From: Thermodesulfovibrio sp.
Lineage (GTDB): Bacteria; Nitrospirota; Thermodesulfovibrionia; UBA6902
Direction of reading: 5' to 3'
Length of the DNA: 51,289 bases
Assembly: GCA_026982355.1 (NCBI GenBank)
Contig: JALSHG010000090.1
Span: 1 to 51,289, forward strand
A program made the position numbers and the translations under genes. The notes under the pieces were generated by a model. It did not search any database. It was not told the origin of the DNA and saw nothing but the letters and a program-made list of their open reading frames with translations. This document shows, in pieces, positions 5,590-51,289 of this stretch; positions within the stretch are counted from its first letter, which is position 1; every line of letters starts with the position of its first letter.

Positions 5590-5676
5590 CCTTGCAGTTG
5601 CATAAAATACCGGCGGCGGACAGGGGAGTCCGGAGGTTTCCCGGCAGCCCCCCCGCACGTCTATGCAACATTAAGC
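5590..5676 (+). repeat. Family A short element, A5
   Basis: An approximately 87-bp element between the MFS and PAP2 genes. It starts CCTTGCAGTTGCATAAAATA and ends CTATGCAACATTAAG, with the shared GGGGAGTCCGG block inside. The flanks are TTAA on the left and CATTAA on the right, so a TTAA duplication is only visible if one extra base is allowed. It sits in the divergent leader region of the two genes. Confidence 0.75.
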
Positions 5677-16821: not shown

Positions 16822-16870
16822 CCTTACAGCGGCATAAAAACACCGCCCGCCGGCTTATGCAACATTAAGG
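16822..16870 (-). mobile_element. Family A mini-element, A7, at a stop/start junction
   Basis: A 49-bp element, CCTTACAGCGGCATAAAAAC at the left and CGGCTTATGCAACATTAAGG at the right. Flanks are TCCA and TCTA (3 of 4 matching). It lies exactly between the FtsX-permease stop codon (16872-16874, inside the right flank) and the adaptor start codon (16816-16818). Removing element and one flank leaves stop and start only a few bases apart, as in a normal tight operon. Confidence 0.82.
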
Positions 16871-33268: not shown

Positions 33269-33357
33269 CCTTACAGCGGCATAAAAACACCTCCCCGGCG
33301 CAGGGGATTCCGGAGGTTTTACGGCGGACTCTACTGCCGGCTTATGCAACGTTAAGG
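33269..33357 (+). repeat. Family A short element, A12
   Basis: An 89-bp element beginning CCTTACAGCGGCATAAAAAC and ending GGCTTATGCAACGTTAAGG, with the GCAGGGGATTCCGGAGG and GGCGGACTCTACTGCCGG arms facing each other. The left flank is TTAT, the right flank GCGC, so no duplication remains. It separates the sigma-54 regulator from the diguanylate cyclase. Confidence 0.78.
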
Positions 33358-39999: not shown

Positions 40000-40060
40000 C
40001 CTTAATGTTGCACAAGCCGGCAGGAGAGTCCGCTGGCGGTGTTTTTATGCCGCTGTAAGG
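40000..40060 (+). mobile_element. Family A short element, A13, with TTAT duplication at a start codon
   Basis: A 61-bp element, CCTTAATGTTGCACAAGCCG to TTTTATGCCGCTGTAAGG, with GGCAGGAGAGTCCGC in between. TTAT is perfectly duplicated at 39996-39999 and 40061-40064. Because the right TTAT is followed by G, it contains the ATG of the next gene (40063). Removing the element and one TTAT restores TGA-ATT-ATG, that is, the ribF stop three bases from the next start. The element end GTAAGG now sits just before the start codon. Confidence 0.88.
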
Positions 40061-42901: not shown

Positions 42902-43113
42902 CCTTACAGTGGCATAAAATGCCGCCCGCGGGCAGGGGAGCCCGGCGGAAAGGCTTTATCCGCGATACCTTAGAGAGTATTCCGCACGGCATATCGACAT
43001 CCTTTGGAATTTCACTCTCCGTTAAGTCCTGCAATAAAGACATATTTCCGATATCCCATCGCTTTATAAAGGTTTTACGCCGGACTCCCCTGCCGGCTTG
43101 TGCAACATTAAGG
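42902..43113 (+). mobile_element. Family A full-length element, A14, with TGTA duplication
   Basis: A 212-bp copy. Left arm CCTTACAGTGGCATAAAATG, right arm CCGGCTTGTGCAACATTAAGG in two overlapping parts; the arms form an imperfect inverted repeat of about 42 bp that includes GGCAGGGGAG(C/T)CCGGCG. TGTA is perfectly duplicated at 42898-42901 and 43114-43117. It is about 95 percent identical by eye to the copy at 50745-50957. It lies between gmk and rpoZ inside a conserved cluster. A solo decayed left end (GGTTGCATAAAATACCGG, about 43129-43146) follows before the gmk stop codon. Confidence 0.92.
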
Positions 43114-44241: not shown

Positions 44242-44455
44242 CCTTCCGGTTGCATAAAAACACCGCCTGCTGGGCACAGGAGTCTGACGGGGAAGCTTTA
44301 TCCGCGATACCTTCAGGAAATATTCCGCACGGCATATGGGCGTCTTTTGGAACTTCACATTCCGTTATTTCCCGCAACAACAGCATATTCCGATATCCGA
44401 TCGCTTTATAAAGGTTTGCCGGCGGATTCCTGTGCCCGTTTATGCAACATTAAGG
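44242..44455 (+). mobile_element. Family A full-length element, A16 (subfamily II)
   Basis: A 214-bp copy, left end CCTTCCGGTTGCATAAAAAC, right end CGTTTATGCAACATTAAGG. It shares GAGTCTGACGGGG and CAGGAAATATTCC with copy A2 rather than with the other full copies, defining a second subfamily. Flanks TTAA and TGAA match at 3 of 4 positions. Together with B1 it fills nearly all of the 411-base gap between yicC and the DUF370 gene. Confidence 0.88.
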
Positions 44456-48664: not shown

Positions 48665-49921
48665 TTAAATTTCTATATCTTCATAAACGGGAAACCTCTT
48701 GCACAGCGCCTTTACCTTGTCTCTGACATGCTTTATGGTTTCACTGTTGTCCGGATTCTTCAGAACCCGGTCTATCAGGTCCGCTATAATGACCATCTCG
48801 GGCTCTTTCATCCTGCGGCTTGTAACGATCGGCGTTCCGATTCTTATTCCGCTTGCAACCGACGCCGGTTTATCGTCATAGGGAATAGAGTTTTTGTTTA
48901 CCGTAATGCCCGCGCGGTCAAGGGCGGTTTCGGCATCCCTGCCGGTTATGTTCCTGTCCGTGAGGTCTATAAGCATCATATGGTTGTCGGTGCCTCCGGA
49001 AATAACCCTGAAACCTTTTCTGATGAGCGCATCCGCCAGCTCCCCGGCATTTTTTATTATCTGAAGCTGGTAACGCCTGAATTCAGGTCTCAGCGCCTCC
49101 TTAAACGCAACGGCCTTGGCTGCAATGACATGCACGAGGGGACCTCCCTGGATGCCCGGGAAGATCATTTTGTCAATCACTCTGGCATATCCGGCTTTAC
49201 AGATAATCATTCCGCCGCGGGGTCCCCTGAGAGTTTTATGTGTCGTTGAAGTGACAAAATCTGCATATGCCACCGGGGACGGATGATTCTCTGTTGCCAC
49301 AAGTCCTGCTATATGGGCTATGTCTGCGAGAAAATAGGCGCCTGCTTCCCTGGCGATACCGGCGAGTGCCTTGAAATCGATTATCCTTGAATACGCGCTC
49401 GCCCCTGCAAGGAGCAGTTTCGGCCTGTACTGTTTTGCAAGGCGCCGCACCTCATCATAATCAATCATGCCGGTCTCACGGTCCACACCGTAAGAGAATG
49501 TCTCGTAGAAGACGCCCGAGAAATTCACATGTGCGCCGTGGGAGAGATGACCGCCGTGGCTGAGGTTCATGCCGAGAATCCGGTCGCCGGGCTTAAGCAC
49601 TGAAAAGTAAACGGCCATATTCGCCTGCGTCCCGGAATGCGGCTGTACATTGACGTGTTCGGCGCCGGGGAAGAGTTCCTTCGCCCTCTCTATGGCGAGT
49701 TTCTCAACCACGTCCGCGTATTCACACCCGCCGTAGTAGCGCCTGTCAGGATAACCTTCGGCATATTTGTTCGTAAACACCGAGCCCTGCGCCTCCAGGA
49801 CGGCCTTGCTCGCATAATTCTCCGACGCGATAAGGACAATCTTGTCCTGCTCGCGCCTGATCTCTCCTTCGATGGCCCTATAGACCTCCGGATCGGTTTT
49901 TTTCAGCTCATTCATGTTCAT
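48665..49921 (-). CDS. glyA: Serine hydroxymethyltransferase
   Basis: A 418-residue PLP enzyme converting serine and tetrahydrofolate to glycine and methylene-tetrahydrofolate. LIASENYAS near residues 31-39, [11 protein letters not shown] near 94-104, and the PLP lysine in [14 protein letters not shown] near 223-236 are present, with the normal length. The start ATG overlaps the rpiB stop codon by four bases; a second ATG two codons later is also possible. It links one-carbon supply to the pentose and deoxynucleotide genes on either side. Confidence 0.97.
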
Positions 49922-50373
49922 GGTGCCTTCAGCAGTCTCTCCTCGATTGCCCGTATCTTGTCGAGCCTTTTCCGGTGCCTGCCCCCTTCAAAATCGGTTG
50001 TAAACCAGATCTTCACTACATTCCTTGCGGTGTCGCCGTCGATGATCCTTCCCGGCAGAACAAGGATGTTTGCGTCATTATGCAGCCTGCTCATCTTCGC
50101 GGTATAACCCTCCCTGCACAACGCCGCCCTTACCCCCGGAAATTTATTCGCCACGATCGACATGCCTATGCCGGTGCCGCAGATCAGGATGCCCCTTTCC
50201 ACTTTACCCTGCGACACCATTTCAGAGACCCTCTCGCCGAAGTCGGGATAGTCCACGGACTTTTCTTCGTTTGTGCCGAAATCATCCCATTGTATTCCGA
50301 TCTCTCTGAGAACGGGAACGATTTCATTCTTCAGCGCAACTCCGGCATGATCACACCCTATAGCTATTTTCAT
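49918..50373 (-). CDS. rpiB: Ribose-5-phosphate isomerase B
   Basis: A 151-residue RpiB/LacAB-type isomerase interconverting ribose 5-phosphate and ribulose 5-phosphate. [10 protein letters not shown] near residues 6-15, [10 protein letters not shown] near 40-49, and the catalytic-site [13 protein letters not shown] near 65-77 are diagnostic. It is the first gene of the rpiB-glyA-nrdR operon. The 222 bases upstream (50374-50595) to the end of the broken surface-protein gene contain no recognised repeat, RNA or strong promoter. Confidence 0.96.
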
Positions 50374-50595: not shown

Positions 50596-51289
50596 TCAAC
50601 CCCGCGGATGTAAGTCAAGGAATGCGTGGATGAAATCTGAAACGTCGAAGTCCATGCAAACTGAAATCCCGGTTGTCGCTTCCCCAAGCCCCGGGGCTGA
50701 GATTCTGACTGTGGTGGCACCTGCTGTGTTGCCTTTTATGTTTACCTTACAGTGGCATAAAAATGCCGCCCGCCGGCAGGGGAGTCCGGCGGAAAAGCTT
50801 TATCTGCGATACCTTGGAGAGTATTCCGCACGGCTTATCGACATCCTTTGGAATTTCATTCTCCGTTACGTCCTGCAATAAAGACATATTTCCGATATCC
50901 CATCGCTTTATAAAGGTTTTACGCCGGACTCCCCTGCCGGCTTGTGCAACATTAAGGTTTACTGTGGCTTTGCCGTCTGTACCGGTTGCGGCGGTTGTGT
51001 TGCCGGCTGTTGCTGTTGAAGGGTCATCAACAAGGAACAGAAGCTCTGCTCCGGGGACGGGCTGTCCGCCTCCTGTGACTGTGACTGTGAGGGGTTCTTC
51101 CGCTCCTTTTCCCACGGTCAGGGTCCCCGGGGAGGTTATGGTGTCTGCAAGGGCTGTTGTGTCTCCGACTGTTACGGTTCCTCTTAAGGTTGTCAGTTCA
51201 ACGGCCTGGTTGCCTGGACCGGCAAGGATGGTGTTGCCCGGGCTGAGCTGGTAGCTCTGCCCGGTTTGCGCGCCTGCCGGTATGCTCAG
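50596..51289 (-). pseudogene. C-terminal end of Ig-like-domain (Big_1-type) surface protein, interrupted by element A19
   Basis: The minus-strand frame is open from the window edge and reads as bacterial Ig-like repeats: LTTLRGTVTVGDTTALADT, then PLTVTVTGGGQPVPGAELLF, ending AATGTDGKATVN at 50962. There element A19 intervenes and carries the frame to a stop at 50747 after about 70 foreign residues. Joining the sequence at the duplicated TTTA restores one continuous frame, TDGKATVN-IKGNTAGATTVRI, which continues SAPGLGEATTGISV and stops at 50596. The Big_1 repeat GNTAGATTV is thus cut in its middle. The N-terminal part is outside the window, so overall size and anchoring are unknown. Such proteins are usually adhesins or secreted matrix proteins. 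Confidence 0.82.
50745..50957 (+). mobile_element. Family A full-length element, A19, with TTTA duplication in a gene
   Basis: The reference copy, 213 bp. Left arm CCTTACAGTGGCATAAAAAT, right arm ends GGCTTGTGCAACATTAAGG. TTTA is perfectly duplicated at 50741-50744 and 50958-50961. The insertion interrupts an Ig-like repeat, so the empty site is known from reading frame alone and fixes the element boundaries. The interior has a long imperfect hairpin (GGAGAGTATTCC with GGAATTTCATTCTCC). Confidence 0.95.

Follow-up and report, generated by a model that had tools for sequence, protein, structure and literature searches.

Insertion site and interrupted gene

The window, that is, the whole stretch of DNA analysed here, is contig C90 (51,289 bp) of a 2.62-Mb genome in 119 contigs (G000), that of an uncultured bacterium of the Nitrospirota. 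Beyond rpiB, toward the right end, a minus-strand gene fragment is split by a 213-bp element, here called A19, that lies between two copies of TTTA (Table 1). When the flanks are joined with one TTTA removed, a single Big_1-like minus-strand frame is restored exactly, reading ...TDGKATVN-IKGNTAGATTVRISAPGLGEATTGISV... (also read as ...AATGTDGKATVN-IKGNTAGATTVRISAPGLGEATTGISV...). This confirms the precise insertion of a MITE into a coding sequence, as an earlier note on this DNA had claimed. The note had also described about 70 foreign residues and a stop appended to the product, and the minus-strand read-through into A19 indeed adds 69 element-encoded residues (LNVAQ...FMPL) before a TAA inside the end of the element.

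Table 1. Features of the window, in order of position
Feature	Position	Strand	Basis
Element copy cut by contig start	1..179	-	99% identical over 179 bp
Further element copy, TGTA duplications	42902..43113	+	Aligned copies
Older, diverged element copy	44242..44455	+	79% identical to A19
rpiB (ribose-5-phosphate isomerase B type), neighbour	49918..50373	-	PF02502, 195 bits
Own-genome-specific breakpoint, 38 bp, junction of gene fragment and rpiB-upstream DNA	50622..50659		Synteny end and homology start
Gene fragment downstream of insertion (IKGNTAGATTVRISAPGLGEATTGISV)	50660..50740	-	84/86 identical to C35
TTTA target-site duplication, left copy	50741..50744		Flank of A19
A19, IS1380-type MITE, ends CCTTACAGTGGCATAAAA ... 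CTTGTGCAACATTAAGG	50745..50957	+	Duplication, empty-site paralogue in C35, 43 aligned copies
Actual open frame: gene fragment, 69 element-encoded residues and stop	50747..51289	-	180-aa open-ended frame
Conserved hairpin core, model R1, 167 positions, 29 pairs	50774..50940	+	186.8 bits, covariation
TTTA target-site duplication, right copy	50958..50961		Flank of A19
Gene fragment upstream of insertion: linker and first part of Big_1-like domain	50962..51289	-	5' end beyond contig

A search with the gene fragment found a second copy of the gene in the same genome, where contig C35 ends. At C35:23380-23568 this copy reads CCTTTTATG-TTTA-CTGTGGC, with one TTTA and no element, and constitutes a natural empty site whose sequence is identical to the flanks of A19 at 84/86 and 106/109 positions (97-98%). 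In the congeneric genome G002, an intact 571-aa gene runs uninterrupted through the site, with the insertion point falling after residue 426, within the Big_1 region; the window gene is 77% identical over 111 aa to this orthologue or close paralogue (L060). The uninterrupted sequence thus exists, as a paralogue in the same genome and as an intact gene in G002. No homologue ending naturally at the insertion point was seen, and both the C35 and the G002 copies continue past it. The copies in C90 and C35 were ruled out as alleles of one locus, since their downstream neighbours differ.

The ends of A19 are set to the base, again as claimed, by the TTTA duplication, the empty site in C35 and 43 aligned copies from the same genome. 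Because its ends recur in these copies, a natural empty site is present in C35 and the orthologue is uninterrupted, the insertion is not a product of chance. Contigs in this 119-contig draft often end in an A19-type repeat, and the window itself starts inside one, as would be expected if unrelated DNA had been joined through a highly repeated element during assembly. The flanks of A19 are nevertheless contiguous in both C35 and G002, and a matching TTTA duplication is unexpected for a random join, so that we regard such an artefact as highly unlikely.

In Pfam searches the G002 orthologue matched Peptidase_M10 with 42.8 bits (cut-off 24) and Cohesin with 33.2 bits (cut-off 24.1), while Big_1 (27.9 bits, cut-off 34.9), Dockerin_1 (21.3, cut-off 22.9) and TSP_3 (16.5, cut-off 25) remained below their cut-offs. 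We read the orthologue as a protease of the matrixin type that also carries cohesin, Big_1, TSP3 and dockerin regions. With Peptidase_M10 and Cohesin as the domains above cut-off and no adhesin domain architecture, the description of the protein as a surface adhesin in the earlier note is not supported. Genes of this protease/cohesin/Big_1/TSP3/dockerin-like kind form a small paralogous family (G002:C86, C277 and C388; G001:C251; G000:C35 and C90), and its members are often found at contig ends, probably by confusing the assembly.

The native C-terminus of the orthologue consists of TSP3 and dockerin, reaching about 145 aa past the insertion site, and the C35 paralogue likewise runs on into a TSP3/dockerin-like end. 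In contrast to the intact L060 gene of G002, the window copy holds the linker and Big_1 region only; the contig end, A19 and a junction near rpiB each cut it short, and its 5' part was not found in the assembly. Downstream of the rejoined site the frame continues for 47 codons, the first 27 of which alone are native to the gene family, and at this point the gene meets DNA from upstream of rpiB. The rpiB-upstream region is syntenic with G001 and G002 as far as about 50618-50621, and homology to the Big_1 gene begins at 50660, with 38 bp (50622-50659) between the gene homology and the syntenic region. The tail of the C90 copy was ruled out as a natural C-terminus, given that orthologue and paralogue continue to TSP3/dockerin and the tail adjoins rpiB-upstream DNA.

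In G001 and G002 an HDOD-like gene (so called from a look at its sequence) follows the rpiB-side breakpoint, making it a neighbour of rpiB. In the genome studied here, the match to this gene stops 557 bp before the end of contig C40 (L083), and the roughly 550 bp of C40 end DNA past it show no match to the G001 or G002 locus. As synteny breaks both on the rpiB side and at C40, the gene fragment lies in an insertion or rearrangement specific to this genome, and the junction between rpiB and the gene could be an assembly error. The earlier note held that the insertion removed the final portion of the protein; this needs correction, as the copy in its present form lacks its native end through the junction at 50622-50659 instead. 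The target of A19 was plausibly a paralogue that is redundant and degenerating.

An IS1380-type element and its possible partner

A19 is short and lacks a transposase, its longest frame having 69 codons. Terminal inverted repeats are present but imperfect, the two ends being only partly alike (CCTTACAGTGGCAT vs CCTTAATGTTGCAC). A 16-base end pattern, allowing at most one mismatch, gave 368 matches in the genome compared to 0 for the reversed control. Among the 43 full-length copies examined in this genome, 25 are flanked by a perfect 4-bp duplication, which is TTAA in 9 cases and TTTA in 6, and TNNA fits 21 of the 25. Copies of the element are plentiful within the genus (∼86% identical in G001 and ∼83% in G002) and patchily distributed in the family. 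An element this abundant helps account for contig breaks in the draft genome.

Elements of 49-89 bp with A19-type ends and no core were also observed in the window, at 5590-5676, 16822-16870, 33269-33357 and 40000-40060, the last with a perfect TTAT duplication. In the left flanks of four copies (L015, L029, L035 and L037), the copy directly follows TATGCAACATTAA or a sequence much like it, giving the look of a nested insertion into the TTAA within the end of another element.

Contig C48 of the same genome carries an intact IS1380-family insertion sequence of 1531 bp with inverted ends and TTAA on both sides. Its 481-aa transposase matched NF033539 with 234 bits (cut-off 180) and PF13701 with 149.7 bits (cut-off 34.7). 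This IS begins CCTTACAGTGGCATAAAA, the first 18 bp being identical to A19, and at the other end it reads CCTTAATGTGGCA where A19 reads CCTTAATGTTGCA. The two have their ends alone in common, with unrelated interiors. From its ends, its TTAA/TTTA duplications and the presence of an IS with nearly the same ends, A19 is best called an IS1380-type MITE, and we infer that it was moved in trans by the C48 IS. Among the loci examined in relatives, no IS1380 element with CCTTACAGT ends was found as a partner. Neither a published IS1380 MITE with TTAA nor a description of an A19-type element was found in literature searches, which for the latter is no proof of absence.

The earlier note further proposed that the MITE acts as a reversible switch of a surface adhesin, giving phase or strain variation. 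The insertion is precise and an empty sequence exists, as a switch would have it; in addition, trees of piggyBac take IS1380 as their outgroup (PMC10813416), and piggyBac excision leaves no scar (PMC7351741). The empty copy, however, adjoins a different gene and is a paralogue elsewhere in the genome, no alternative allele of the locus was found, and no excision was seen. Moreover, the product is protease-like and not evidently an adhesin, and the occupied copy would have no native end even if A19 were absent. We therefore give a switch very little credence.

A conserved hairpin core behind different ends

Within A19, the arms at 50772-50803 and 50910-50941 are 94% complementary, and the element folds far better than shuffled sequence (z of -8). 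In an alignment of 51 copies from eight genomes, the ends and loop motifs are conserved, while in the stem arms the sequence is replaced between genera and complementarity is kept. With kinship ignored, 97.4% of the cells in this alignment pair, both sides change in 13 of the 29 pairs, and none of 500 shuffles reached any of the structure measures. When 26 diverse copies were aligned separately with MAFFT, both sides changed in 21 of the 29 pairs, again ignoring kinship, and the covariation score was 0.503, compared to 0.191 for shuffled alignments and no more than 0.165 for slid ones. As the structure derives from the 51-copy alignment and was itself part of the model that picked up the distant copies, the covariation support is strong but not fully independent.

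The core is probably under selection as a structure, perhaps as an RNA read on the plus strand of A19, antisense to the gene. G-U cells exceed A-C cells by 26:9 and 30:15 when ancestry is ignored, an excess that favours a plus-strand RNA but is only suggestive. A search of Rfam with A19 and distant copies gave no match up to an E value of 1.

That the element might instead be a coding mini-gene, donating a conserved peptide as Rickettsia palindromic elements do, is very unlikely: the minus-strand frame is open through A19 and some copies in the genus have an open frame on one or other strand, but the stop inside the end of the element leads to truncation with no pass-through, and most copies from other genera keep the pairing and have stops in all frames, which makes a conserved peptide unlikely and rules out conserved coding potential of the core.

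Searched with a covariance model built on the 167-nt core, 55 of 230 genomes in the class, representing 33 genera, gave matches. At an E value of 1e-5, a sample of 396 genomes from the phylum gave 38 with the core, of which just three, members of a single family, fall outside the class. Named genomes with an exact 21-mer of the core were in all cases Nitrospirae or Nitrospiraceae MAGs, and none of the viral contigs matched this 21-mer.

Reading the sequence of individual copies directly, we found the ends CCTTACAGTTGCATAAA ... TATGCAACATTAAGG kept in L138, L139, L143, L148 and L153, whereas L140, L150 and L151 lie between ATAATCCGTA/TACGGATTAT-like repeats and L147 lies within TTAA-CCCAAAAAATGCA ... 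TGCAGTTTTCGGG-TTAA. The hairpin core thus occurs behind at least two kinds of element end. We also observed that an IS1380 element of G072 (L157) has the ends CCCCTATTTTGCCGATAG and that in G057 the sequence to the right of one core copy (L152), TATCGGCAAAATAGGG, is similar; going by this likeness, the core may have a second vehicle of IS1380 type.

The unusual feature is an interior conserved by compensatory change across the class and behind different ends. The hairpin core looks undescribed. Somewhat short of an even chance, in our estimate, it is an undescribed structured RNA of ∼167 nt that travels as MITE cargo across the Nitrospirota class and changes vehicles between CCTTACAGT ends and other repeats. 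Such an RNA, if real, may aid its own spread or regulate the transposase or host genes.

Origin of the locus and comparison with known elements

Taken together, it is highly probable that a non-autonomous IS1380-type MITE, moved in trans and with a core selected as a structure, lies in a multi-copy matrixin-like gene. A19 entered, at a TTTA, one of several copies of a gene whose product is a secreted, matrixin-like protein of several domains, and 4 bp were duplicated; the transposase that moved it in trans was most likely one of the IS1380 family, the intact enzyme of C48 being a candidate. The predicted product ends inside the Big_1 region after the 69 element-encoded residues. The TSP3 and dockerin end would have been lost separately, via the junction specific to this genome; this is probably a paralogue undergoing degeneration.

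With the insertion, a natural empty site and a probable partner IS all present in a single genome, the ends of the element and its target rule are fixed. The interior of a MITE is generally regarded as passenger DNA, while here the interior is the part conserved across genera. If the core is an RNA, it would represent a mobile RNA family with no Rfam entry, and selection on a MITE interior would become a directly testable question.

As in the IS1380 family, the ends of A19 begin CCTTA, its 4-bp duplications are mostly TTAA or TTTA, and it is present in many copies. IS1247, a published IS1380 element, has 16/13-bp repeats and a 5-bp duplication (PMC3281130), differing in the latter from the 4 bp duplicated by A19. 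The interior of A19 bears no relation to the C48 IS and shows conservation at the level of structure.

Insertion into genes and the making of fusions have precedents among bacterial MITEs (reviewed in PMC10969869; for enterobacterial RU elements, PMC2759123), and short bacterial repeats within coding sequences add codons to the host frame (PMC10969869, PMC2759123). The A19 insertion is therefore ordinary in kind, and a very clean example of its kind. Like Rickettsia palindromic elements (RPE), enterobacterial RU elements and ERIC, to which we liken it by description and not by sequence, A19 is a short repeat inside a coding sequence; unlike them, it adds 69 residues and a stop, with no in-frame pass-through, and the pass-through with a conserved peptide that characterises Rickettsia palindromic elements is not seen in A19. 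Transcripts of BOX elements and of QMITE2 are predicted to fold as stem-loops (PMC10969869), and A19 resembles both as a multi-copy element with a stem-loop fold. Unlike in BOX elements and QMITE2, the stem of the A19 core covaries across a whole class and sits behind different ends.
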